Origin: Anaerolineae bacterium
GTDB lineage: Bacteria > Chloroflexota > Anaerolineae > Aggregatilineales > J027
Assembly: GCA_019913005.1 (NCBI GenBank)
Contig: JAIOHL010000135.1
Location: 1 to 57,757 of the forward strand
Direction of reading: 5' to 3'
DNA length: 57,757 nt
Shown here: one piece after another, positions 31,503 to 46,989 of the stretch
Position numbering within the stretch: the first letter of the stretch is position 1
How the letters are laid out: the number at the start of each line of letters is the position of its first letter
Made by a program: the position numbers and the translations under genes
Notes under the pieces: model-generated
What the model was told of the DNA's origin: nothing
Databases searched by the model: none
The model's input: only the letters and a program-made list of their open reading frames with translations

Positions 31503-32993
31503 CTATTGCAAAACTTGCAGTTGGAAATAGTAGGTGACGGTCATATCCGGCCACACAATTTCCACCGAGAGGATATAGGAACCAGCGGCTACTCCCAGAT
31601 TAAACAACACCACGTTATCGCCTACGCGCGTCTCAGAGGCGAGTGGTTGGAGGGTATCGCGGCTCAGGTAATTGATCTCAATGCTGGTCGGGCGTGAACC
31701 CTCGATCCGAATATTGGCAGCGGCATTACGGGCAGCCCGAATCGAAGTAGAGGTTGACCCGGTAGCGCTGAAGGGTTGTTTGACGCACACCAATTCATTG
31801 GAGGCGTTGCGGCGACAATAATCGTACCCGACGGGCTGATAGTTGCGTCCAGCGACTTTTAATGCCGCAGCGGGTGGGGCATCTCCCTCAAACACCGAGG
31901 TATTGGTCGGGCTGACACCCAGCGTTGGGGTGGCGGTTGGTGTAGAGGTGGCCGTTGGCGGAACAGGCGTCGTCGGAGAAGGTGTTGAAGTCGAAGTGTT
32001 AGTTGGTGGTGCGACGACTTCCGTCACTTCCTCTGTCGGTATAGCCGTAGGAGCTTCGGTAACAACCTCGGTGGCTGCTTCAGTGGGAGTGACCACTGCG
32101 GAGGGTGTCGTGGCAACTGGCGTGACAGGTGTGGCCGATTCCGTAGCTTCCGGTGTTGCAGTAGCGACCTCTTCAGTCGCGGCAGGTTCAGTTACGACCT
32201 CGGTTGGCTCGGCAGTAGGTTCAACGTTTTCTTCAGTTGCCGCTGGAGTCTCCGTAGCATTACCACCGCTTATCCCAGATTCCTCAGTGGCTTCGGGGGT
32301 GATTTCTGTCGGTTCAGGGGTTGCTTCCACTGTAGCGATTTCAGTGGCTTCCTCGGTACTTTCGGCAGTGGCCTCTGGCGTTGCTTCGAGGGTAGCCGCC
32401 TCGGTTGCCACTTCGGTCACTTCAGCGGTGATTTCGGGGGTTGCGGCGGGTGTCGTCACTGCATCCGTCGGTTCGGGGGTGACATTGCCAGCCACGGCCT
32501 GACCCACATCTACCGCAAACACATTGCTGACCGTCGCGCTTGAGCCTTCAATATCGGCATAATAGGCGGTGACATCCAACAAATAGCGTCCACTGGGCAG
32601 GGCTAGTACAAATTCGGTGCTTTGGGCCGGATCAATCTGCATGGTAAACAGCGGGTTTCCGGCGGCATCCATCTCACGCGACGTGATCACCACCTGATTG
32701 GGAAGAGCCACACCTTCAGGATTGGCAATTGCCACTGTCACCGCCTGCCCACCTTGTACCGCTAAGGCCGTTGATGGACTGGGGCTGTCGGCGTTACTGG
32801 TAAATTCGCAACTGACATTGTTTTCGCCTTTGGGCCAGCAGGCAACGGTGCGCAAACCTGCATCACTCTGTTCGCCTGCTTGTAAGCTGAGATTAGGCTG
32901 ATTGGGTGCGGAAAAATCCTCCCCACCGTCACAGGCTGCCAGTATAAATGTCAACAAAAGAAGTGCTAAAGGTAGCAGATATTTTCGGTTCAT
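31503..32993 (-). CDS. Lipoprotein with Thr/Glu/Pro-rich low-complexity stalk
   Basis: About 496 residues from ATG 32993 (MNRKYLLPLALLLLTFILAAC); the lipobox Cys follows ILAA. An Ig-like or beta domain of about 120 residues comes next. A long low-complexity region (residues about 150-370) is built from EAT, TPE, ATE and PTE repeats. A compact C-terminal domain of about 120 residues contains two Cys (YDYCRRNASNELVCVKQ) and ends in beta-strand-like TVTYYFQLQVL. The layout (lipid anchor, stalk, end domain) suits a surface protein holding its final domain away from the membrane. Function unknown. Confidence 0.78.
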   Translation of the reverse strand: MNRKYLLPLALLLLTFILAACDGGEDFSAPNQPNLSLQAGEQSDAGLRTVACWPKGENNVSCEFTSNADSPSPSTALAVQGGQAVTVAIANPEGVALPNQVVITSREMDAAGNPLFTMQIDPAQSTEFVLALPSGRYLLDVTAYYADIEGSSATVSNVFAVDVGQAVAGNVTPEPTDAVTTPAATPEITAEVTEVATEAATLEATPEATAESTEEATEIATVEATPEPTEITPEATEESGISGGNATETPAATEENVEPTAEPTEVVTEPAATEEVATATPEATESATPVTPVATTPSAVVTPTEAATEVVTEAPTAIPTEEVTEVVAPPTNTSTSTPSPTTPVPPTATSTPTATPTLGVSPTNTSVFEGDAPPAAALKVAGRNYQPVGYDYCRRNASNELVCVKQPFSATGSTSTSIRAARNAAANIRIEGSRPTSIEINYLSRDTLQPLASETRVGDNVVLFNLGVAAGSYILSVEIVWPDMTVTYYFQLQVLQ

Positions 32994-33073
32994 CAAGAAT
33001 TTTGGCGTCCGATGGGATTGGACTAAATAAAAGGGCTGCATCGGGCGCTTGGCTCCTTTCTTTTGAAGTGCGT

Positions 33074-33604
33074 TTAACTGTACCATGCAGGTTGCAGAAA
33101 TGGCGCAAGGGCCATCCTGATAAGTGCCTCATATGCTTCTTGGCGAGAGCTTAGGCCGTTGGTCAAAATTCCAATCGCGCCTTCGGCTTGTTTGGTGTTG
33201 TTCTGACCTGTCAGTTGATCCATTGCCGTACCAAGCTCAACACCTTCACGGATGAGTTCGGCAACGCTGTCGGGCAAGCGGATACACGAACTTCCGCCAA
33301 TGCCGATCCGTCCTTGATGGTCAACAATGGCACACCACGCACAGGTCATCATGCCAAATTCGGTTTCTTGAACGCCCCCCTCTAATCCGATACCCATTTC
33401 GGCTTGGGTCGCGTGCATTGCGGCAGTGGCCCGATTGAACGCTCCCCGGCGAGTTTCTTCATCGCCAATCGGCATAACCCGGACATTAGATTCCACCGAA
33501 ATCGGTATAAATTCAGCCTGTGGATAGAGGGCTGACAGGATACGCTGGCTTGCGTTACACTTAACCGGATTGGTTGACCCAATAGCGATACGCGCAATAT
33601 ACAT
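33074..33604 (-). CDS. yjjX: Inosine/xanthosine triphosphatase, YjjX family (DUF84)
   Basis: 176 residues. It begins with IAIGSTNPVKCNAS (substrate and metal-binding N terminus). GIGLEGGVQETEFGM and WCAIVDHQGRIGIGGSSCIRLP match the YjjX/DUF84 fold, and the C-terminal region GAIGILTNGLSSRQEAYEALIRMAL is characteristic. The enzyme hydrolyses non-canonical purine nucleoside triphosphates (ITP, XTP), keeping them out of nucleic acids. It is divergent from rqcH. Start ATG 33604. Confidence 0.88.
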   Translation of the reverse strand: MYIARIAIGSTNPVKCNASQRILSALYPQAEFIPISVESNVRVMPIGDEETRRGAFNRATAAMHATQAEMGIGLEGGVQETEFGMMTCAWCAIVDHQGRIGIGGSSCIRLPDSVAELIREGVELGTAMDQLTGQNNTKQAEGAIGILTNGLSSRQEAYEALIRMALAPFLQPAWYS

Positions 33605-35536: not shown

Positions 35537-36127
35537 TCATTCCACCAACACAATATCCAGACTGCGTAAGAGGGAAATCGCTTCGGGGAGGGAGAATTTG
35601 GTCTTTTTGAGCGTGTTGGCGGTAGCATCAATCGTGTAATTGGATGCGCCAGTAAAATCGGCTTTGGTCAGGTCGGTGTGCAAAAAGCGGCTGTCGGCAA
35701 AGTTGCTGTCGGTGCAGTTGGCCTCGGTCAAAATCGTGTCAGCAAAATCCACTTCATGGGCAAGGCATTTTCGCATGACGACCCGGTGCAATTTGATGGC
35801 GCGGAAATTGGAATAACTGAGGTTGCATTCCACAAAACTGACCGAACTCATGGCCTCCCACACAGCGTCAATCCACGCAATGCCGATCATTTTGCAGCGT
35901 TCAAATTGGGTTTTGGTGAAAGCACTCCCTTTGACCGTGACCAGACTTAAATCGCAGTCTACAAAACGGCAGTCTATAAATTTGCAGTTTTGAAAATGGG
36001 CCTCCGGGAAAGAACAGGCTGTAAAGGTGCAGTCTTGAAAGGTGATGCGCTGGATGGTTTCGTGAGAAAAAGTCTCTTTGCGAAATGTCTGGTCAAAATA
36101 TTCGGATTGTTCAGACAGTCGGCTCAT
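35537..36127 (-). CDS. Pentapeptide-repeat protein (Qnr/McbG-like architecture)
   Basis: About 196 residues from ATG 36127 (MSRLSEQSEYF), which overlaps the end of the DUF2007 gene by 17 bp; longer starts would lie entirely inside that gene. Successive (A/C/S/T)-(D/N/x)-(L/F)-x-x units (FQDCTFTACSF, FQNCKFIDCRFVDCDLS, FVECNLSYSNFRAIKL, TDSNFADSRFLHTDLTKADF) form a right-handed beta-helix with a break near the middle, as in Qnr. Qnr proteins mimic DNA and protect gyrase; whether this one does is unknown. It is the last gene of the 38656-35537 cluster. Confidence 0.8.
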   Translation of the reverse strand: MSRLSEQSEYFDQTFRKETFSHETIQRITFQDCTFTACSFPEAHFQNCKFIDCRFVDCDLSLVTVKGSAFTKTQFERCKMIGIAWIDAVWEAMSSVSFVECNLSYSNFRAIKLHRVVMRKCLAHEVDFADTILTEANCTDSNFADSRFLHTDLTKADFTGASNYTIDATANTLKKTKFSLPEAISLLRSLDIVLVE

Positions 36128-36446
36128 CGGGGGTGTCGTCCTCATCATCATAATCATCAGGAAATTGGATGGCGGGTTCGTCAATTAGCGGCGGGGTTTC
36201 ATCTTCGGCTAAAAGGGCCATTGCTTCGGCTTCGTAGGAGGTGGGAACGAGGACACGAATCGCGCCGATACCAATCGTAATGCCCATCGCACGCGCCGCA
36301 CCGTCTTGCTGGATAAACACAGGGATTTCGGCTGTGCGCAGCAGGCCCGCGATGACTTCAGCCTCAAAAGAACTGGTGCAATCCGCGACCACTGACCACG
36401 ATTTTTGGGGTGGCTGACGACGGGGGTGGAGGCGTAGAAATCGCAT
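36111..36446 (-). CDS. DUF2007-like putative signal-transducing protein
   Basis: About 111 residues from ATG 36446, one base after the kinase stop. WSVVADCTSSFEAEVIAGLLRTAEIPVFI...IRVLVPTSYEAEAMALLAED matches the DUF2007 pattern (short alpha/beta fold thought to be a signalling partner). A strongly acidic tail follows (FPDDYDDEDDTPDEP). Coupling to the kinase on one side and the pentapeptide protein on the other suggests one functional unit. Confidence 0.72.
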   Translation of the reverse strand: MRFLRLHPRRQPPQKSWSVVADCTSSFEAEVIAGLLRTAEIPVFIQQDGAARAMGITIGIGAIRVLVPTSYEAEAMALLAEDETPPLIDEPAIQFPDDYDDEDDTPDEPTV

Positions 36447-36447
36447 T

Positions 36448-37464
36448 TCAATGACCGTCCCCATAACAGGGTAGCATGACGGTGAAGGTCGTGCCTTGAT
36501 TGACCTGACTCTCCACCCAAATGCGCCCGCCGTGCTGCTCGACAATGCTCTGGACAATCGAAAGCCCCAAGCCTGTGCCTACCGTATCGCCAACAACATT
36601 GCTGGCGCGGTAGAACTTGCTGAAGATATAGGGTTGATCTTCGGGCAGCACCCCAATGCCAGTGTCCGACACAATCAACAAAACGAAGTCGCTTTCTGAG
36701 GTAAGTTCCACTGTGATGCGCCCACCCGCTTGGGTGTATTTAATGGCGTTATCCAACAACTGATGGACAAGTTGGCGCAGTTGGATGGGGTTGCCCAGCA
36801 CAAAAGGTAATTTTTCCGGCGCGTAAAATTCGACCTGCTGATATTTCTCGTTGATTTGCTGGTGCAGTCCTTCCAACGCATATTGCACCATCATCTGCAT
36901 TTGTACGGCTTTACGATCCGTCTCCAAGACCGCGCCGACCTTTTCGAGTTCCTGCAAATTATTGAGGAGGGCAGTGATGGAATGCACACTGAAAATGATA
37001 CGCCCGATGAAATTGCGCTGTTGGTCATTCAGCGGCCCCATACGCTCCAATAACTCGATGTAACCGATGATGGCGGTCAGTGGTGAACGCACATCGCGGG
37101 TGACGGCGCCAACAAATTCATTACGCAGGCGGCTGAGTTCTTTGAGGTTGGTGATGTCTTGCATCATAACCAACGACCCCACCCCCGGTAATTCCACCCG
37201 TTCAGCACTGTAGACCTGATTGCGCTCGGTGAAATTGATCTCGCGGCGGGTATGTTGACCTTCCCCCTCGGTTAATAGGGCCAAAACATCGGGATTTTTG
37301 ATGATACGGCGGAGGGCTTGACCGATGGTCGAAGCGCTGCCCAGTCCAAATAGATGGGAGGCGGCTTGATTGCAAAACAAAATATGCTCGTGATGGTCAA
37401 TGGCAATCACGGGGGTATTCACATTTTGAAGCAGTATATCTAGTGCGTTAATTGTACCCACCAT
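36448..37464 (-). CDS. PAS-containing sensor histidine kinase lacking the phospho-acceptor His
   Basis: 338 residues, cytoplasmic. The PAS domain (residues about 5-105) contains NTPVIAIDHHEHILFCNQAA. The HisKA H-box reads FVGAVTRDVRSPLTAI, where family members have SHELRTPL: the His is Arg123 (codon at 37096-37098 on the plus strand is the complement of CGC). The ATPase domain is intact: HQLLDNAIKYTQ, SDTGIGV, FSKFYRAS, GTGLGLSIVQS. It can bind ATP but cannot use the canonical His. It lies 31 bp after the REC-GAF gene. Confidence 0.9.
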   Translation of the reverse strand: MVGTINALDILLQNVNTPVIAIDHHEHILFCNQAASHLFGLGSASTIGQALRRIIKNPDVLALLTEGEGQHTRREINFTERNQVYSAERVELPGVGSLVMMQDITNLKELSRLRNEFVGAVTRDVRSPLTAIIGYIELLERMGPLNDQQRNFIGRIIFSVHSITALLNNLQELEKVGAVLETDRKAVQMQMMVQYALEGLHQQINEKYQQVEFYAPEKLPFVLGNPIQLRQLVHQLLDNAIKYTQAGGRITVELTSESDFVLLIVSDTGIGVLPEDQPYIFSKFYRASNVVGDTVGTGLGLSIVQSIVEQHGGRIWVESQVNQGTTFTVMLPCYGDGH

Positions 37465-37495
37465 TAAAACAAGTTGTTCCTTCCAATAGCCGCTC

Positions 37496-38656
37496 TCATA
37501 AGGGTGTGGAGTCGGTAGAGGTTAACTGCCCGATCAACGCACGCATCTGCTCGGCTTTCTGTGTCAAGTCCAACAGTTGGGTCGAGAGTTGGGGCGATAG
37601 TTTGGGGATATTGGCAAGGTTAGCGAGGGCTTCCTGCATTTGACCCAAAGGAACAAATACGCCACTCGAAATTTTCTGGTCGCGCAACTTTAGTGTGTTA
37701 TAGGCAGCTTCAAGGCTTTTGGCACGCTGCTCCAATGCATTAAACAGGCGGGCGTTGACAATGGCAATCGCGGCGTAATCGGCCAATGTGTTAATGACTT
37801 CACCGAGACGGTCTTCAAAGCCCTTTTTGCGGCGATGATTGCCGACAGTTAACACACCAATCGCTTTGCCATTGACTACCATCGGGGCATAGACGGTTGC
37901 CAGAATATCGCGGGAGAGCTTAAAGCGCTTCAATCCATCGCCTTCGACAACAAGCGGCTGCTGGCTGGTCATGACCAATTTCGCCAATTCATCGCGCATG
38001 GGTTCGCCCAATTTTTCCTGCATGACCAGCGTCAAATTTTTGCCTGCACGTAGAATCAAATCCGTCGAATTGGGTTCTTGCAGCAGGAGGGTCGCGTAAT
38101 CCGCCCCACTGACGGCCAATGCACCCGCCAGCACTGCATCAAACATCCCATCAAGGCCGCGCATGGCGGTGAGCGTTTGGCCCAACGTGGCGAGGGTAGT
38201 CAATTCTTTTATACGAGCTTCCAATTCGATATTGCTCTTGCGAAGTTGTTCGGTGAGGCCGTCGCGTTCTTTACGCAGACGCACATCGGCAAGGGCACGC
38301 TGCACCACCGACATCATCTCGGCTTCGCGGATGGGTTTGGTGATGTAATCGGTTGCGCCAAAACGGAACGCTTCTATCGCATCTTTTTCACTACCACGCT
38401 TGACTCCCACGATAATCGGCCCGGTATATTGGCGGGATTTGATTGCCACCAACATATCTTTGCCGGTGAGACCGGGCATGACCAAATCTATATAGATCAG
38501 GTCGGGTTTGCGCTTTTCGACCATCGCCACGCCTTCCACACCATCACGGGCCTCTAATACCTCGTATTGGGTGGGGCGAAAAATTTGGTCTTTTAGGAGA
38601 TCACGTACTTCAACGTCATCATCTACGATTAAGACCCGTTCCATTTGTTTTGTCAT
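37496..38656 (-). CDS. Response regulator with receiver, coiled coil and GAF domains
   Basis: 386 residues. The receiver has Asp12-14 (VDDDVEV), Asp57 (LIYIDLVMP) and Lys107 (YITKP), but the switch Thr/Ser position is Val85 (IIVGVKRGSE), so phosphorylation would not be coupled to the usual switch. A coiled coil (residues 125-155) precedes a GAF domain (about 160-310, LGQTLTAM...VYAPMVVNGKAIGVLTVGN). A second helical tail of about 70 residues contains LEAAYNTLKLRDQKIS. There is no DNA-binding domain. It partners with the His-less kinase downstream. Confidence 0.88.
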   Translation of the reverse strand: MTKQMERVLIVDDDVEVRDLLKDQIFRPTQYEVLEARDGVEGVAMVEKRKPDLIYIDLVMPGLTGKDMLVAIKSRQYTGPIIVGVKRGSEKDAIEAFRFGATDYITKPIREAEMMSVVQRALADVRLRKERDGLTEQLRKSNIELEARIKELTTLATLGQTLTAMRGLDGMFDAVLAGALAVSGADYATLLLQEPNSTDLILRAGKNLTLVMQEKLGEPMRDELAKLVMTSQQPLVVEGDGLKRFKLSRDILATVYAPMVVNGKAIGVLTVGNHRRKKGFEDRLGEVINTLADYAAIAIVNARLFNALEQRAKSLEAAYNTLKLRDQKISSGVFVPLGQMQEALANLANIPKLSPQLSTQLLDLTQKAEQMRALIGQLTSTDSTPL

Positions 38657-39382: not shown

Positions 39383-41971
39383 TTAGAGTTGGTTCAACGC
39401 ACCACGATAGGTGTCGAGCGCTTCCTGTAAACGGCCCTGTCGCATATAGGTATCGCCCAACAGACGGCGCACCTTTGGATTTTGCGGCTGACGGGTGGCG
39501 AGTCGGGACAAATCGTCGGCAACCACTTCGAGCGCCGCCGAGGATTCGACCAGCGTCTCGTAATGGTCTAGGCTGGCACCCAGATTGCCCACTTTCTCCA
39601 ATTCACGGGCCAAATTCAGGCGTGTATGGTGATCGCTCGGATTTTGTTCCAGCGAGGCTTGGTATTGTGCAAACCCAGCCGGAACGAGGGCAGGAGATGA
39701 GGGCGGCGGCACAGGTTGGGCCACTTGGCGCGAACTGGCAGCTGGGGCGACCACTGGCATAGGTGATGGCGGTGGTGCCATTGGCGGCACGCTGGGCACG
39801 TGGGTAGGTGTCATCACCACAGGCGGCTGTTGATAGACGGGCTGGGCAGGTGCGACGTAGACAGGCGCAGGGGGTGTCTCAACTACAGGTGCTTGATACC
39901 ATGAGGGCAGACCACCTTCTTGGGCAACGGGAAGATGTTCTTCAACCTCAGCCGAGGCTTCGGATGGCGTCTGAGCAAGGAATGCGAGTTCGGGTTGTGC
40001 AGTGGACGTTTCGGGTGGGGCATTTTCCGCCACAAAACTCAGCGGATCCATGACGGGTTCGCTCAACCAATCCGGGGTGGCGATTTCTGAAATCGCTTCT
40101 GGTTCGACTATTTGTGAGCTAATCAACCATTCCGGCAAATCACTGTCGGCGGGAACGACTTGACTGCTCATTTCTTGCAGCCAGTCGGGTAAATCGGTTG
40201 GTTCAGACGCGATAATTTCGGTTTCAATGGGCACTTCAAACATGCTGATGTCGAATTCCGGTAGGGCTTCGGTTTGAACCATTTCTGGCATGATCTCTTC
40301 GACTTTGGACACTGCCTCGGCGTACCAATCTGGTTCGGCGGGCGGGGTTAGGCTTTCATGCTGTAAGGTATATTCTTCATCGAGTGCCGCTGCCCAGTCG
40401 TCCCCACTTTGGGCATAACCCGCAATAAAATCCGAAGCCGCCAGAATCTCATCTTGCATTGGTGCAAAACTGGTGGTGTCTTCTAGGGTAAATTCGGGTA
40501 GTTCGATTTCGGGCAATTCTTGCACAATCGGGCTTTCAGATAGCCAATCTGGTAAATCGGTTGGGGCTGGCGGCGGCAAAATCTCATCAATCAGGGCCGG
40601 GAAAGTATCTTCTGTCACCGGAGCCGCTTCGAGGTCGGAAGGCATTTGAGCAGCCAACCAGTCTGGGATTTGGCCGGGGGCAATTTCCTCGCTCTCAGCG
40701 GGATGAGTGGCCTCAAATTCGTCATTCAAGGGGGTAAGAGCGGCTAAAGCTTCAGCCTTCTTCATTAGCCATGCCAATTCAGCTTCGGGGGTAATCGTGC
40801 CATGTGCCTGCGCTTCGGCGATTTGCTCATCCGTCAACCCCTCAATGGAAGTGATCATGTGCGGGGTGGTTGGGGTAGGTTCGGGCGTGACTTCATAACT
40901 GAGATCAAAGCCGGGGATGTCATCCGCAGCCATGCTGCTTAGAAAGTCAGTCACCCCTGCGCTCTGATCGCCTGCCAAGTCGCTCAACCACGACAAGGAC
41001 GAAGTATCCTCGCTGAGTTCAGGCGCGGATTCGGGCAGTGGCATGGATGGTGGATAGGATTCACTGCTGGCAAATGACTGTCCCGAAGTGGTCTCAAAGG
41101 GCGAATAGGGGACATAACCGGGTTCGTCAATCACCACACTGTTGGGGTCAATTTCGGGAATTTCATAGTTGGCTGCTGTCATAAATTCATTGGGGTCTGC
41201 CCCCTGACGCGCGGCGAGACTTTCTAGCCATGCCATCGGGTCAACATCCACCGGAATTTCGCCATCTTGAGGCACCCATGCTGCGGCTGGTGTTTCAAAA
41301 CTGAACTCCGGCTGTTCGGCGGGAACTTCGTAGGGTTGCGTTGCCGATGTTTCAAATGCGGCTGGTTCTTGAACTGGATGACTTGGGCCAGCGGCGGCAG
41401 ATAATGGGCGGCTGAATTTTTCGGAGGGGACATAGCCGGGTTCATCAATGACCACGCTGTTGGGATCAACTTCGGGAATTTCATAGTTGGCCGCGGTGGT
41501 GAATTCGTTGGGATTCGCCCCTTGACGCGCCGCCAGACTTTCCAACCACGCCATCGGATCCATGCCACCGAGGGGATCATTGGCATCAAGAGCTGCTGAA
41601 GCCACTGGTTCGATGGGAGGTGGTTCTTGGAATGAATAGTCCATCATCGTCGGCTGTTCGGCATAGCTGTAGTCGTAAGCTGGAGCCTCCACAGGCGGTG
41701 CAGGCGAGACCTCGATAGGCTCGGTAGCCTGCGGGGGTTCTTCGACGGGACGGCTTGGGCCAGCGGCGGCAGATAATGGACGGCTGAATTTTTCGGAGGG
41801 GACATAGCCGGGTTCATCAATCACCACGCTGTTGGGGTCAATTTCGGGCACCGACATATCCGCTGTGGTCATAAATTCTTGCGGATTTGCGCCCTGTCGT
41901 GCCGCAAGGCTCTCCAACCAACGCATTTGCTCTTCAAGTGTCATGTTCTCAAAATCTGGCATGTCGCCCAT
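39383..41971 (-). CDS. Acidic repeat protein with Trp motifs and C-terminal TPRs
   Basis: 862 residues from ATG 41971, AAGGAGG about 10 nt upstream. The N-terminal third has three copies of a long unit: MAWLESLAARQGANPNEF followed by PEIDPNSVVIDEPGYVP and KFSRPLSAAAGPS. The middle is acidic with many [LP]-D-W-L motifs (IPDWLAAQMPSD, LPDWLSESP, LPDWLQEMS). A Pro-rich linker (residues about 690-770) leads to a C-terminal TPR region of about 95 residues (RLNLARELEKVGNLGASLDHYE; RRLLGDTYMRQGRLQEALDTY). No signal or membrane segment. It is downstream of the 1631-residue gene by 69 bp and shares its motif. Probably a scaffold; function not known. Confidence 0.82.
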   Translation of the reverse strand: MGDMPDFENMTLEEQMRWLESLAARQGANPQEFMTTADMSVPEIDPNSVVIDEPGYVPSEKFSRPLSAAAGPSRPVEEPPQATEPIEVSPAPPVEAPAYDYSYAEQPTMMDYSFQEPPPIEPVASAALDANDPLGGMDPMAWLESLAARQGANPNEFTTAANYEIPEVDPNSVVIDEPGYVPSEKFSRPLSAAAGPSHPVQEPAAFETSATQPYEVPAEQPEFSFETPAAAWVPQDGEIPVDVDPMAWLESLAARQGADPNEFMTAANYEIPEIDPNSVVIDEPGYVPYSPFETTSGQSFASSESYPPSMPLPESAPELSEDTSSLSWLSDLAGDQSAGVTDFLSSMAADDIPGFDLSYEVTPEPTPTTPHMITSIEGLTDEQIAEAQAHGTITPEAELAWLMKKAEALAALTPLNDEFEATHPAESEEIAPGQIPDWLAAQMPSDLEAAPVTEDTFPALIDEILPPPAPTDLPDWLSESPIVQELPEIELPEFTLEDTTSFAPMQDEILAASDFIAGYAQSGDDWAAALDEEYTLQHESLTPPAEPDWYAEAVSKVEEIMPEMVQTEALPEFDISMFEVPIETEIIASEPTDLPDWLQEMSSQVVPADSDLPEWLISSQIVEPEAISEIATPDWLSEPVMDPLSFVAENAPPETSTAQPELAFLAQTPSEASAEVEEHLPVAQEGGLPSWYQAPVVETPPAPVYVAPAQPVYQQPPVVMTPTHVPSVPPMAPPPSPMPVVAPAASSRQVAQPVPPPSSPALVPAGFAQYQASLEQNPSDHHTRLNLARELEKVGNLGASLDHYETLVESSAALEVVADDLSRLATRQPQNPKVRRLLGDTYMRQGRLQEALDTYRGALNQL
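41165..41960. repeat. Three diverged in-gene repeats (WLESLAARQGA unit)
   Basis: The segments around 41880-41930, 41480-41560 and 41165-41245 encode the same block of about 60 residues, with near-identical stretches such as PNSVVIDEPGYVP. The copies differ in silent and conservative changes, showing past in-frame duplication. Confidence 0.75.
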
Positions 41972-42040: not shown

Positions 42041-45000
42041 TTATTTAAACCAATCGGGCGGCGTGTCATCGTCCTCGCCAAAATTTGACTCATCAAAGTC
42101 TTCTGACTTATTAAAGTCTATTGAGGGTGCAGCCCCTTTTTGTCGGCGTAACCAAGGTGGGTCATGATCAAAATCAAATGATGCGGGTGTAACCACCGGA
42201 ATTGCCTCTGGTTCCACTTCAACGGTGGTTTCTCGGCGTTTCCCAAACAAGCGCCGACCCCGTTTTTGTTTTGGTTTGGCTGGCTCATCCCATTGGATTG
42301 GGAACGCATCATCAAATTCCATATTAGTATCCGGCAAATCGAGTTTGGTGGCAACTGGTGTCACTTCTGCCTTATCGAAGCCAAAATCTGCCTCGTCTGG
42401 AAATTCTTCGGGCAGCGTGGTTGGCACCGGTGACGAAGGACGGGTAGCCGCTTCCACTTCTTCGGGGGTCAACTCGCGTAGCTTAAAGCCCGTTAGTTGA
42501 TCGAGTTCAGAAATCATGGCCTCGGTTTGGTCGGTGATGCGAATTTGATCCGCGCTTGTAATCGAGGCAAGGAATACATCAATATTGTCTACCGGCTTGC
42601 GCTCCTCAGATTCTTTGGCAGAGGCGCGGGCAGGACGCTCATCAAAATCCACCGCCATTTGAATATCGGAGGTGTCAAGCCGAATATCATCACTCAGCCA
42701 ATCGGGGGCAACCGCACTTTCAACTTCTGATTCTTCCAACAGAAGATCATCTTGCCACTCGGCAGCCAACCCTGCTTCGGTTGATTCTTCAAGCTCTTGT
42801 TCATCCAGATCAAGCCAGTCTGTATGTTCATCAGCAACCGCCGACATATCTTGGAAAAGATCATCGAAGCCTGTAACAGGAGTCTCAGGCTCTTCCTCAA
42901 TTTCCACCCCGGCCAGCCAATCAGGTAGTGCTGCGGCGGGTTCGGCCATCGGGATGGGGGCGCTCGGCTCGGATTTACCAATGGAAGACAGCCAATCGGA
43001 GGCGCTTTCTGGTTCGACGATCTCGGTCTCGACATCCTCTAACCAGCCGGTATGCGGTTCGCCGATTTCGGAGAGGTCGTCAAATAAGGCCTCCATGTCG
43101 GATTTAGCCGTGACTTGCGCCTCTAGTGGTGCAGAGCTATCGTCAGAATCGCCACTTAGCCAATCGGGGATCTGCTCGGCTTGCGGGATGACCTGTGGCG
43201 GTTCAGTCTGTCCAAATGAAGAGAGCCAATCAGAGGCACTTTCTGGTTTGGGGGTGCCTTCTTCCAAGTCATCTAGCCAACCCGTGCGGGGAGCTTCAAT
43301 TTCAGACAGGTCATCGAAAAGACTGCCAAATTCGGGTTGTGAGGTGGCGGTAGTCTGTGGGATGGCTTCTGGCGGTTCAGCTTGTCCAAATGAAGAGAGC
43401 CAATCAGAGGCACTTTCCGGCTTGGGGGTGCCTTCTTCCAAGTCATCTAGCCAACCCGTGCGGGGAGCTTCAATTTCAGACAGGTCATCGAAAAGACTGC
43501 CAAATTCGGGTTGTGGGGTCTGTGGGATAGGAGCAGGTGGTTCAATCTGTCCAAATGAGGAGAGCCAATCGGCAGCACTTTCCGGTTTGGGGGTGCCTTC
43601 TTCCAAATCATCCAACCAACCTGTACTTGGGGTACTGATGTCGGAAAGGTCATCAAAGGCGCTTTCGAAGCTCTGGTTACTGGGCGCACCCACTTCACCA
43701 AAGTCATCCCCTAACAGTCGGCTCAGGTCATCATCGGAAACTTCCGTCCCCAGCGTATTTGACAAGGCTGAGGGCATGGAGAGCAGCCAATCGTCGCTGA
43801 TTTCTTCGCTTAAATCTACGGTTGCCCCGGCGGTGGGCGATTCAAAATCCGTAAGCCACCCGGTGCTGGGTTTATCAATAGCTGAGAGGTCGTCAACCGG
43901 AGCGCCGAACATCTTGTCAAAGTTGGTATCCGAGACATCCATCTTGGCGGATGGGGTTTCCAGCGAAGACCCCCAATCATCGGCGGGGACACTATCCAGT
44001 TCTGTTAGCCACCCAGTGCTTGGTTCACCAATAGCTGAGAGGTCATCTGTCGGAGCGCCGAACATCTTGTCAAAATCGGCGTCTGAGACATCCATCTTGG
44101 CGGATGGGGTTTCTAGCGAAGATACCCAATCATCGGCGGCGGGGGCACTGTCCAGTTCCGTAAGCCACCCGGTGCTTGGTTCGCCAATAGCTGAAAAATC
44201 ATCCACCGGGGTGCTGAACATTGCATCCAATTCACTATCCGTTACTTCTGGGGCGACTGACTGAATCGGCTCGATGTCCCGCATCCATTCGGGAACTTCT
44301 TCATTCTCATCAACGGCGAGGAAGTCGGGCATATCGGGCACAGCGGCTTGCTGAACGTCGTCTAACCAAGCTGTTCCTGGAATCAGATCATCGCTAAATA
44401 GGTCAGTGAATTCTTCATCCGAAACGTCTTGGGCAATGGAGGAAGTCTGTGGTGGAACATTCAGCCATGCGCCAAGATCATCTACAGGTATTTGTTCTGA
44501 AACGGTTTCGAGTGGTTCAGCCGAGACAGGGAGTTCTGGCATGGCTTCACTCTCAAGCACATTCCAGTCCACTTCGTCTAAACTGGACGCTCGACCCGGT
44601 GAGGTGAACACATCACTATCGGTATCCTGTCGCCAAGGAAGATCACCTGTGACACCCAAATGACTTGGGGTGGAGGTGATGGGTTGTTCAGGCAGTTGAC
44701 TGTCGAAGAGGACAGCGAATTCATCAATCGAACCCGTTTCGGCGGATGCTTCGGGCGTACTCTGTCGCCATGGAAGGTCACCTGTCACCCCCAAACGTTG
44801 TCCAGTGGCAGGGGGTGGCGTGACTAATTCATCTTCAAATAACGAGGCGAATTCTTCGGCGGATTCTTGCTCGACTTTTTCGAGAGTCAGTGAAGGGGTA
44901 TCCGGTGCTACGGCATCGGTCAGCCAGTCAATTTCATCACTAGCATCGGGTGATTCCTCATCCAATTGGAAAATTGGCGGGGTGGCCGATACTTCCGTGC

Positions 45001-46936
45001 TTTCTGTTTCCCCCATTAGCCAATCATCAGTTTCGAAAGAAAAAGTGGAATCTTCCCTTGCCGCGATTTCGGGCAGCATGTCAGTGCTGGCTATTGGGGC
45101 GGCTGACTGCGCGGGTACATCGGTTAGCCAATCGGGTGTTTCATCTTCAAATAGGGTCGTAAACTCGGCCTGATCCTCATCCTCAGATAAATCCGGGGCA
45201 TCGGACAGCCAGCTTGGGGTTACGGGAGGTGTGGGGGCAGAGGTTTCGATAGCGCCAAAATCCTCAAACAGCGTTTCTTCGTCCCACAGTGTCTGGATAG
45301 GCTCGTTTGCCGCCCGTGCTGGCGATTCCTCGACCAGCCAATCGGGTAGCGCCTCTTCTGCCTCTTCCGGTTTTCGGCCACCCATTGCCAACAATGCTGC
45401 CACTTCTTCAGCCGATGGTGGACGAGCGGCGGCCCGTAATTGTTCTAATTCCTCGTCGGGATTCTCGCCAAAACTGAATTCTTCGACATCCCCGAAAATG
45501 GATGGTGGTTCATTGTCGGAGGCGATTTGAGGTTCTTCGCTTGACCAACCGGGTAGTTCTTCATCTTCCGCCTGTTGGATTTCCGCCAACAATCCTGTGA
45601 AACCTGTAGATTTGCGTGGCGGCGGTGCTGCTTCAGTGGTGGTGAAATCCGGTATATCATCCAACCAACTGGGGGTTGGCGCTACCACTTCTGGTTTCTG
45701 GCTTGGCGATTCCGCCATCCAATCCGGCAAGGGTGCTTCGGCAGTGGTATCCCCAAATAGGTCACTAGCATTGACGGTTGGGGCGGTTTCGGCGACATCG
45801 GCAAACCAATCGGGTAATTCATCTTCACCCGAAACGGCAGGGGATGGCGTTGGGGTCAGGCTGGCATTGGCCGGACTGGGTTGACTCAATGAGCTTGCCA
45901 TTTCGTTAAACCAGTCATCCGGGGCGGGCAAATCGGCGGTCTTGGGTTTGCCGCCAAAATCCGCGCCGGGGGTAAACCAATCCGGTAAATCATCGGCGGG
46001 GGTCGGACTCACCACTTCACTCATCCAGTCCGGCAACTCTTGGTCGGCGGTACTGCGTCCGGGGCTGCGCGTGGGAGCAATGCTTTCGGGCGTATTGAAT
46101 ACATCGGTGATCTGGCTGATCCAATCCGGGGCAGGGCCAGCCACCGAAGTCGCCGCATCGGCTGTCCATTTGAGACGGGATAATACGAATGCCCCTTCAG
46201 GTAAGGTGGCCTGATTTTCGCTGCTATAAATTAAGCGCAGGCTTTCATATGGCGCAAGGGCTTCCACTTTTTCTAAGAAAGGCTTGGCGTCGTCTGGACG
46301 GCGCGTTTCGATCCACAGTTTTGCCATTAGTAAATTCAATGGCAAACAATCGGGCAGCACCCGCAGCACTTCCAGCGCAAGTTCACCTGCCTCCAATAAA
46401 TGCCCGGCATCCCAAAGGGCGCTTGCTAAACGGACACGCAAATCTAAGCGATTGGGTTGTTCGGCTAGGCTCCGCCGCAGTTCCGTAATGGCCTGCTCGT
46501 GCATCCCGCTGCTGAGATACTGCTGGGCAAGGGCGGCGCGGGTCAATTGGATTTTGCGAGGGCTGGCTTCATCCCGGCGTTTATAGAGGCGCTTGAGTTC
46601 GTTCAGGATGACGTTATTGTTCGGCATCTGTTCATTGGCACGTTCCATATGCCAGATTGCCTGATTTAACTGCTGCTGATTTTCGTAGATGGAACTCATG
46701 CCGACATGGGCCACAAAATCGTTGGGGTCGGCGCTTAAAAGGCGCGGAAAAACTTGGGCGGCCTCTTCATGGCGGGCTTTTTCTAATAAAGCCTTGCCGA
46801 GTAAACGATATGTTTCCACATTTTTGGGGTAATGCTGCAAAATGTGGCGACAATGCCCGATGACTTCCTCTAGGGCTTCACGTTGAAGTAAGAGGTCAAG
46901 TTCATCTAGGTAGGCACGGAGAGTTGTTGTAGACAT
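42041..46936 (-). CDS. Giant acidic protein: N-terminal TPRs plus array of Trp motifs
   Basis: About 1631 residues from ATG 46936; a TTG two codons up is less likely. Residues 1-265 are TPR-like (LGKALLEKARHEEAAQVFPRLL; LASALWDAGHLLEAGELALEVL). The remaining 1300 residues are strongly acidic and contain about 35 [P/S/G]-x-W-[LMF] motifs (LPDWLAG, STGWLTE, ASDWLSS), often preceded by [DE]-F-x-x-[LM]-F and DDLS. Modules of about 51-58 residues repeat in tandem in the middle. A basic patch (KQKRGRRLFGKRR) lies near the C terminus. No transmembrane segment. I infer a multivalent scaffold; the partner is unknown. Confidence 0.82.
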   Translation of the reverse strand: MSTTTLRAYLDELDLLLQREALEEVIGHCRHILQHYPKNVETYRLLGKALLEKARHEEAAQVFPRLLSADPNDFVAHVGMSSIYENQQQLNQAIWHMERANEQMPNNNVILNELKRLYKRRDEASPRKIQLTRAALAQQYLSSGMHEQAITELRRSLAEQPNRLDLRVRLASALWDAGHLLEAGELALEVLRVLPDCLPLNLLMAKLWIETRRPDDAKPFLEKVEALAPYESLRLIYSSENQATLPEGAFVLSRLKWTADAATSVAGPAPDWISQITDVFNTPESIAPTRSPGRSTADQELPDWMSEVVSPTPADDLPDWFTPGADFGGKPKTADLPAPDDWFNEMASSLSQPSPANASLTPTPSPAVSGEDELPDWFADVAETAPTVNASDLFGDTTAEAPLPDWMAESPSQKPEVVAPTPSWLDDIPDFTTTEAAPPPRKSTGFTGLLAEIQQAEDEELPGWSSEEPQIASDNEPPSIFGDVEEFSFGENPDEELEQLRAAARPPSAEEVAALLAMGGRKPEEAEEALPDWLVEESPARAANEPIQTLWDEETLFEDFGAIETSAPTPPVTPSWLSDAPDLSEDEDQAEFTTLFEDETPDWLTDVPAQSAAPIASTDMLPEIAAREDSTFSFETDDWLMGETESTEVSATPPIFQLDEESPDASDEIDWLTDAVAPDTPSLTLEKVEQESAEEFASLFEDELVTPPPATGQRLGVTGDLPWRQSTPEASAETGSIDEFAVLFDSQLPEQPITSTPSHLGVTGDLPWRQDTDSDVFTSPGRASSLDEVDWNVLESEAMPELPVSAEPLETVSEQIPVDDLGAWLNVPPQTSSIAQDVSDEEFTDLFSDDLIPGTAWLDDVQQAAVPDMPDFLAVDENEEVPEWMRDIEPIQSVAPEVTDSELDAMFSTPVDDFSAIGEPSTGWLTELDSAPAADDWVSSLETPSAKMDVSDADFDKMFGAPTDDLSAIGEPSTGWLTELDSVPADDWGSSLETPSAKMDVSDTNFDKMFGAPVDDLSAIDKPSTGWLTDFESPTAGATVDLSEEISDDWLLSMPSALSNTLGTEVSDDDLSRLLGDDFGEVGAPSNQSFESAFDDLSDISTPSTGWLDDLEEGTPKPESAADWLSSFGQIEPPAPIPQTPQPEFGSLFDDLSEIEAPRTGWLDDLEEGTPKPESASDWLSSFGQAEPPEAIPQTTATSQPEFGSLFDDLSEIEAPRTGWLDDLEEGTPKPESASDWLSSFGQTEPPQVIPQAEQIPDWLSGDSDDSSAPLEAQVTAKSDMEALFDDLSEIGEPHTGWLEDVETEIVEPESASDWLSSIGKSEPSAPIPMAEPAAALPDWLAGVEIEEEPETPVTGFDDLFQDMSAVADEHTDWLDLDEQELEESTEAGLAAEWQDDLLLEESEVESAVAPDWLSDDIRLDTSDIQMAVDFDERPARASAKESEERKPVDNIDVFLASITSADQIRITDQTEAMISELDQLTGFKLRELTPEEVEAATRPSSPVPTTLPEEFPDEADFGFDKAEVTPVATKLDLPDTNMEFDDAFPIQWDEPAKPKQKRGRRLFGKRRETTVEVEPEAIPVVTPASFDFDHDPPWLRRQKGAAPSIDFNKSEDFDESNFGEDDDTPPDWFK
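43253..43700. repeat. In-gene tandem repeats, period 174 then 165 bp
   Basis: The block beginning GGTGCCTTCTTCC recurs at 43253, 43427 and 43592 (58 and 55 codons apart), with first and second copies almost identical over about 100 bp. Each encodes FDDLSEIEAPRTGWLDDLEE and a following SDWLSSFGQ. Confidence 0.8.
43860..44210. repeat. In-gene tandem repeats, period 153 bp
   Basis: GCCGAACATCTTGTCAA recurs at 43904 and 44057 (51 codons), with nearly identical surroundings encoding FDKMFGAPxDDLSAI and STGWLTELDS. A third, more diverged copy precedes them in the protein. Confidence 0.78.
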
Positions 46937-46989
46937 GAGCAACGGCCCGCTTCGTTGGTGCGTTATTTACGCTTCCTTACGTTACTTTC

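Follow-up and report, generated by a model that had tools for sequence, protein, structure and literature searches.

Does a histidine kinase that has lost its phospho-acceptor residue, encoded beside a receiver protein that has lost its switch residue, still belong to a signalling system, and are the two losses linked? This question is raised by a pair of genes in a contig of 57,757 nucleotides (JAIOHL010000135.1, the whole of which we call the window) from an Anaerolineae bacterium of the order Aggregatilineales. Both genes are on the minus strand. The kinase gene (36448..37464) encodes a protein of 338 aa with the architecture PAS-DHp-CA, in which Arg occupies the phospho-acceptor position of the HisKA (DHp) domain and the CA domain is of the HATPase_c family (Pfam matches PAS 1.1e-7, HisKA 1.7e-13, HATPase_c 2.2e-31). 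Directly upstream, the second gene (37496..38656) encodes a REC-GAF protein of 386 aa (Response_reg 5.7e-25, GAF_2 2.4e-9). A sequence-only reading of the locus had taken the loss of both hallmark residues in one pair as a sign of a non-canonical signalling mode. We found that the kinase half is a real, selected and rare form of a known kind, most likely a pseudo-histidine kinase, and that the receiver half displays a trait of its family.

The histidine-less kinase

The H-box of the kinase reads VTRDVRSPL, with Arg123 (codon CGC, 37096..37098, minus strand) in place of the His, exactly as the sequence-only reading had it. The alignment of orthologues that it proposed for the two positions showed Arg123 of the kinase and Val85 of the REC-GAF protein to be fixed in the five genomes of the genus, which speaks against a sequencing error or a strain mutation; a private mutation or sequencing error was rejected, and codon 123 is identical in all five. 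Close orthologues with the His restored had been named as what would overturn the claim: there are none inside the genus, yet G008, from the same family, has His.

A search of 154 genomes of the order at E <= 1e-55 gave a single kinase orthologue in each of 44, and all 44 were read; among 396 genomes drawn from the class, 100 had a match (E <= 1e-58), and of the 92 of these outside the order 40 were read. One sequence (G105, 34% identity, on a very long branch) is perhaps no true orthologue. Among the 84 orthologues, the H-box residue was His in 76, Arg in seven (G000-G004, G005 and G036, spanning three genera) and Gln in one (G107); within the order alone, 36 of 44 had His, the exceptions being the Arg forms and G107. 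His was also present in 71 of 72 distinct HisKA domains of the source genome, with one Gln (70 loci read, the genome containing 108 HisKA matches), and in all 76 general homologues recovered by a genome scan with peptide patterns that excluded the H-box (L035-L110). In a published census, 722 of 76,471 HisKA domains had no His (PMC12632262). The feature is thus rare both in general and within its source genome. A second His-less HisKA domain of this genome, with Gln (SVAQELRTPL), lies at locus L301 (G000:C364:19100-19600).

The kinase gene is kept under purifying selection in the genus: the ratio of nonsynonymous to synonymous substitution rates (dN/dS) was 0.028-0.047 in five genus pairs, compared with 0.013-0.075 for the adjacent NDK gene, the value for G000 versus G002 being rough since dS exceeded 1. 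No internal stop occurred in the kinase gene of any of the seven Arg genomes. The source genome contained no second orthologue of this kinase at E <= 1e-55, the next match being at 1.3e-46.

The usual architecture in the order is REC-GAF-PAS-DHp-CA, of about 650 aa, as seen by alignment with both window proteins; in other orders some kinase open frames are about 490 aa long. All seven Arg forms are trimmed to PAS-DHp-CA, and the His-bearing kinase of G008 is REC-PAS-DHp-CA (the sequences of G034, G021, G352 and a few others tell nothing about architecture, their N-termini being truncated or frameshifted). The hybrids of the same order outside the genus are orthologous to the window kinase, with 34-49% identity; they differ from it in keeping the His, apart from G107 and the Arg forms, and in keeping N235 and K242 with few exceptions. 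In a tree of the 44 sequences of the order and 18 of the 40 from the rest of the class, the Arg forms formed one clade (81/80) with G008 as its sister (81/88), and two state changes were counted overall, including that of G107.

The sequence-only reading had described all ATP-site motifs as intact, which proved wrong. The first Asn of the N-box, at position 235, is Gln in the window kinase and in the rest of the genus (codon CAG, 36760..36762, minus strand), in a CA domain (residues 224-332, 36469..36795, minus strand) that otherwise keeps N239, K242, D267 and G269. The window kinase therefore departs from a canonical HisKA kinase at the H-box and in the N-box triad 235/239/242, where N239 and K242 are kept, and agrees with it in the G1 (DxGxG) and G2 (GTGLGL) boxes; since these two boxes are kept in the genus, nucleotide may still bind. 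Among the 76 His-bearing orthologues, N239 and K242 were invariant and position 235 was Asn in 74. The N-box is altered in all four His-less lineages: Q235 in the genus, Q242 in G005 (which additionally has Asn124 and Arg296), A242 in G036 and Q242 in G107. Four of four lineages against two of 76 His-bearing sequences gives a Fisher p of 9.5e-6, for columns 235 and 242 only and with sequences treated as independent.

These positions align with the N-box of HK853 in a comparison with PDB structures (N376, N380 and K383 by our own count, anchored on H260), and we matched them by spacing to N356, N360 and R363 of CpxA. In the latter protein Asn360 and Arg363 are reported to touch the ATP phosphates; introduced into CpxA-delta-P, N356Y gave 38 Miller units versus 13,523 for the parent (PMC3904827).

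Structure prediction gave a histidine kinase fold. An AlphaFold2 model of the window kinase had a mean predicted local distance difference test score (pLDDT) of 82.0, with helices at residues 105-141 and 147-178, which together with the Pfam match define the DHp helices (residues 105-178, 36931..37152, minus strand); the PAS domain precedes them (residues 11-67, 37264..37434, minus strand, by Pfam match). Foldseek searches with this model matched many histidine kinases, including DivL (4q20).

The receiver partner and its tail

The receiver domain of the neighbouring protein (residues 8-118, 38303..38635, minus strand) keeps D12, D13, D57 and K107, and has Val85 (codon GTC, 38402..38404, minus strand) where canonical response regulators have the switch Thr or Ser; this part of the earlier description was confirmed, Val85 being present throughout the genus. 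Its coupling to the loss of the His was not. Orthologues of the REC-GAF protein were found in 26 of the 154 genomes of the order at E <= 1e-62, and one below that cut (G047) was added, so that 27 were read. The switch residue was Ala in 13, Val in seven, Thr in four and Glu, Ile and Gly in one each; the Thr was thus missing in 23 of the 27. In the 18 genomes having both genes and a kinase with His, the Thr was present in four (G008, G056, G025 and G067) and missing in 14. The loss of the Thr is wider than that of the His; its absence is a family-wide state and is not tied to the His loss, and we rejected a coupled loss. Val is unusual among receivers generally (67 of 71 distinct receivers sampled in the genome had Thr or Ser, and three of the other four resemble alignment shifts), but members of this protein family commonly lack the Thr. 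In the REC-GAF tree, Val is common to the window genus and G009, which fall into one starred group; the Thr-bearing G008 and G056 branch next to it.

The family resembles the pseudo-receivers described in PMC12632262 in that most of its members are without the Thr, and some without the second acidic residue, the Asp or the Lys; in the seven orthologues of family f3, the second acidic residue is also lost and Arg replaces Lys. The window copy differs from them, as far as that source describes them, since only the Thr is lost and the DD pair, the Asp and the Lys are kept. With these residues in place, it may still be phosphorylated. The Thr is part of the Y-T coupling path of receivers according to the same source; the window receiver, which has no such Thr, can probably still take up phosphate. 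Elsewhere in this group, the N-terminal receivers of seven His-bearing hybrids (L007, L009, L011, L013, L015, L017 and L021) have lost the phospho-Asp, replaced by Gly, Glu or another residue, which indicates that receiver erosion here does not depend on the kinase.

The GAF domain (residues 168-299, 37760..38155, minus strand, by Pfam) is followed in these proteins by a tail of roughly 80-115 residues that the sequence-only reading had overlooked, and whose last 60 or so residues in the window protein are DHp-like (residues about 319-379, 37520..37702, minus strand). Using hhalign, a profile of the 27 tails matched the DHp profile of the 84 kinases plus the window kinase with a probability of 93.0 (E 3.4e-7 for one comparison, score 41.9), and matched a whole-kinase profile at the place of the DHp domain with a probability of 85.9. 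Controls were far lower: 60 column shuffles reached at most a score of 15.6 and a probability of 1.6, and reversal of either the tail or the DHp, as well as comparison with three other segments of the kinases, gave at most 0.4 each. When the f3 tails were removed, the probability was still 82.0. Among ten tails sent to Pfam, HisKA matched above the cut-off of 26.9 bits for G011 (30.8 bits), below it for G018, G014 and G029, and not at all for the other six. The column corresponding to the H-box His was never His (27 of 27). By its profile similarity to HisKA beyond composition, the tail is a degenerate His-less DHp domain, and we thus named the protein REC-GAF-DHp*.

This tail is newly found, as is the kept order of the two genes. 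The kinase is present in 23 of the 26 genomes having REC-GAF-DHp*, compared with 21 of the 128 genomes without it (Fisher 2.2e-12 over the 154 genomes of the order, uncorrected for kinship), and in all 23 genomes with both, REC-GAF-DHp* is encoded on the same strand as the kinase, upstream of it and within 3 kb. The latter measure is a distance that allows for intervening genes; in G018 a further REC-GAF-like open reading frame stands between the two. The fused orthologues of about 650 aa had led us to suspect that one hybrid kinase was split into the two window genes; this fission was rejected because REC-GAF orthologues exist as separate genes beside complete hybrids.

How the pair may signal

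The residue losses, the predicted fold, the selection on the gene and the gene order support membership of the kinase in the pseudo-histidine kinase class. We lean cautiously towards a conserved pseudo-histidine kinase that would act, by analogy with DivL of Caulobacter crescentus, through conformation and contact. Autophosphorylation has very probably been lost, because the phospho-acceptor His is Arg and a residue of the N-box has changed. The PAS domain and the nucleotide state, if nucleotide is indeed bound, would set the conformation of the DHp-CA core, whose output would be a contact, either to a receiver or to a further DHp domain. The presumed partner is REC-GAF-DHp*, which combines a receiver with a phosphorylation pocket but no Thr switch, a GAF domain and a His-less DHp hairpin. 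Homology and gene order suggest that the two proteins may meet by docking of the receiver on the DHp domain or in a mixed DHp bundle; either way, the GAF and PAS inputs would be joined with no transfer of phosphate between the two proteins. The proposal of non-canonical signalling thus stands for the kinase, in which the His loss is fixed in the genus, selected, present in three genera and accompanied by N-box changes, and falls for the argument drawn from paired losses.

DivL has Tyr instead of the His; PMC4211667 reports that it has neither kinase nor phosphatase activity, binds nucleotide weakly and binds DivK~P via the response-regulator docking surface, with PAS aiding specificity. The likeness, as far as that source goes, lies in the PAS-DHp-CA architecture, in a residue other than His at the phospho-acceptor site that homologues share, and in the kept histidine kinase fold. 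The window kinase differs in having Arg rather than Tyr, an N-box change, one PAS domain and 338 aa, in belonging to another phylum, and in standing beside REC-GAF-DHp* and DUF2007 genes with no known output kinase. Orthology of the two found no support: the close relatives recovered for the window kinase are hybrids of the same order and class, and DivL came up only among many histidine kinases, ninth by sequence and 33rd by fold. Compared with the pseudo-histidine kinase class as a whole (Collins and Childers, cited in PMC12632262), the absence of the phospho-acceptor His and the position beside a receiver protein are shared; here, by contrast with what that source relates, longer His-bearing orthologues exist in the same family and order and the steps of the loss are traceable.

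A bolder variant, which appears rather doubtful to us, is that the two genes jointly encode all the parts of a hybrid kinase that has no phospho-acceptor His (REC-GAF-DHp* with PAS-DHp(Arg)-CA), whose mixed DHp bundle would integrate the GAF, PAS, nucleotide and receiver-phosphorylation inputs in purely allosteric signalling. If true, this would be a two-component pair without phosphotransfer between its own components.

Several observations weigh against the contact-based reading. The clade of Arg kinases is only moderately supported (81/80), and a topology uniting the family without G036 was not rejected (approximately unbiased test, p-AU 0.298), so that the His may have been lost once or more than once. 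The columns of the N-box Fisher test were picked after inspection of the alignment. Of the 59 columns that are at least 90% conserved among the His-bearing sequences, nine differ in the window kinase and seven in that of G005, compared with a median of one and a maximum of eight in the His-bearing sequences themselves, so part of their N-box change may be general drift; G036 and G107 depart at only three, two of which are the His and K242. As for the partner, the tail controls were limited to shuffles, reversals and kinase segments; the window's own tail, one of the ten sent to Pfam, had no HisKA match; the G014 tail fits FlgN better than HisKA; and the AlphaFold2 model of the REC-GAF protein, built from a 5-row alignment, reached a pLDDT of 37.5 and was not used. 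Finally, the Arg kinases of G005 and G036 have no REC-GAF-DHp* gene beside them, and in G009 that gene occurs without any kinase orthologue at E <= 1e-55, which makes the pair separable rather than obligate.

The principal alternative, which we judge unlikely, is that the His-less kinase is a dedicated phosphatase, stimulated by nucleotide, that removes phosphate from a receiver, either at Asp57 of the REC-GAF protein or in another one. The phosphatase activity of HisKA proteins is contributed to by the His without depending on it (PMC12632262), the genus has an acidic D124 and a polar S127 where the E/DxxT/N motif beside the His is described (PMC5727384), and ADP stimulates such activity in HK853 and EnvZ (PMC7005713). 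However, the polar residue is Ser, which is also the consensus of the His-bearing sequences, rather than Thr or Asn; G005 has Asn at the acidic position; PMC12632262 argues against a phosphatase role for pseudo-histidine kinases in general; and DivL, as described in PMC4211667, is no phosphatase. That the CA domain still works and, within a mixed dimer, phosphorylates the His of a different kinase would agree with the kept N239, K242, G1 and G2 boxes and with the kinase heterodimers reported in PMC9491836, but an N-box residue has changed in every His-less lineage and CpxA N356Y is nearly inactive (PMC3904827); we thus consider it quite improbable.

Still less probable is a protein that remained an autokinase by moving phosphorylation to another H-box residue such as Thr122. 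A Thr or Ser does precede position 123 in all eight His-less forms, but Ser stands there in 91% of the His-bearing orthologues and is thus no replacement, and the N-box changes argue against phosphoryl transfer. We give least credence to a decaying remnant without function. The N-terminal REC-GAF part, the His and the N-box residue are lost, nine of 59 well conserved columns have changed, and G009 has lost the whole kinase gene; against this, the reading frame is uninterrupted in the seven Arg genomes, dN/dS is 0.03-0.05 and codon 123 does not vary among the five genomes of the genus.

The locus is of value because a single bacterial order displays together the partner, the shortened form and the His-bearing orthologues of a pseudo-histidine kinase, and with them a natural series from REC-GAF-PAS-HK with His (HK, histidine kinase) to REC-PAS-HK with His and PAS-HK with Arg. 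It suggests a rule, testable on thousands of genomes, by which loss of the His tends to bring the loss of an N-box residue, the fold and the G boxes staying; if this rule holds, it would provide a sequence test separating working pseudokinases from annotation errors. The DHp-like tail further suggests that response regulators seemingly without output domain may carry a worn DHp domain below Pfam cut-offs. Literature searches, judged by title and the start of the abstract, returned nothing on such a His-less kinase in Chloroflexi; a search for CA-less or degenerate DHp proteins gave none, and the word DUF2007 was absent among the matches listed.

Neighbouring genes

A DUF2007 gene (36111..36464, minus strand, start codon inferred; Pfam 5.4e-7 for the longer open reading frame) is located at the end of the kinase gene. 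Such a gene lies directly downstream of the kinase, close to it or overlapping it, in 21 of the 84 orthologue loci, five of the 84 being uninformative; overlaps were measured from stop to stop, so that the true ones may be smaller. Its product is a candidate output partner of the kinase. A DUF2007 gene also adjoins the Gln kinase of G107. The gene run ends with a pentapeptide-repeat protein gene (35537..36184, minus strand), which has a homologue at the same place in the genus and is only a candidate for a link to signalling.

Further away in the window, an 862-aa protein (39383-41971, minus strand) has long acidic low-complexity stretches and TPR matches below Pfam cut-offs; genes related to it neighbour the kinase or NDK gene within the genus, and also in G005 and G009. 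The kinase-less order in G009 is 862-aa type gene, NDK, REC-GAF, DUF2007. In G005, the Arg kinase adjoins an 862-aa type gene, the DUF2007 gene, like that of REC-GAF-DHp*, being absent from there, and in G036 the Arg kinase lies behind a chaperonin gene. In genus g4 of the same family (L162 in G009, L164 in G007), the REC-GAF-DHp* and DUF2007 genes are adjacent with no kinase orthologue at E <= 1e-55, the contig of G007 ending within the REC-GAF part. At some loci of family f4 (L156, L158, L163 and L167), a Roadblock/LC7 gene, together with a gene for a REC protein weakly similar to GGDEF, is located upstream of REC-GAF-DHp*, of the hybrid kinase or of both, Pfam having been run for members of L156 and L158.

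Two other proteins of the window have unusual compositions. A 1633-aa protein (42041-46942, minus strand) contains long acidic low-complexity stretches, 46 Trp and seven repeats of the form DD(L/F)S(A/D/E)I..P.TGWL, and a 527-aa protein (31503-33086, minus strand) combines a Thr/Pro/Glu-rich low-complexity middle with a start that, by eye, resembles a lipoprotein signal.

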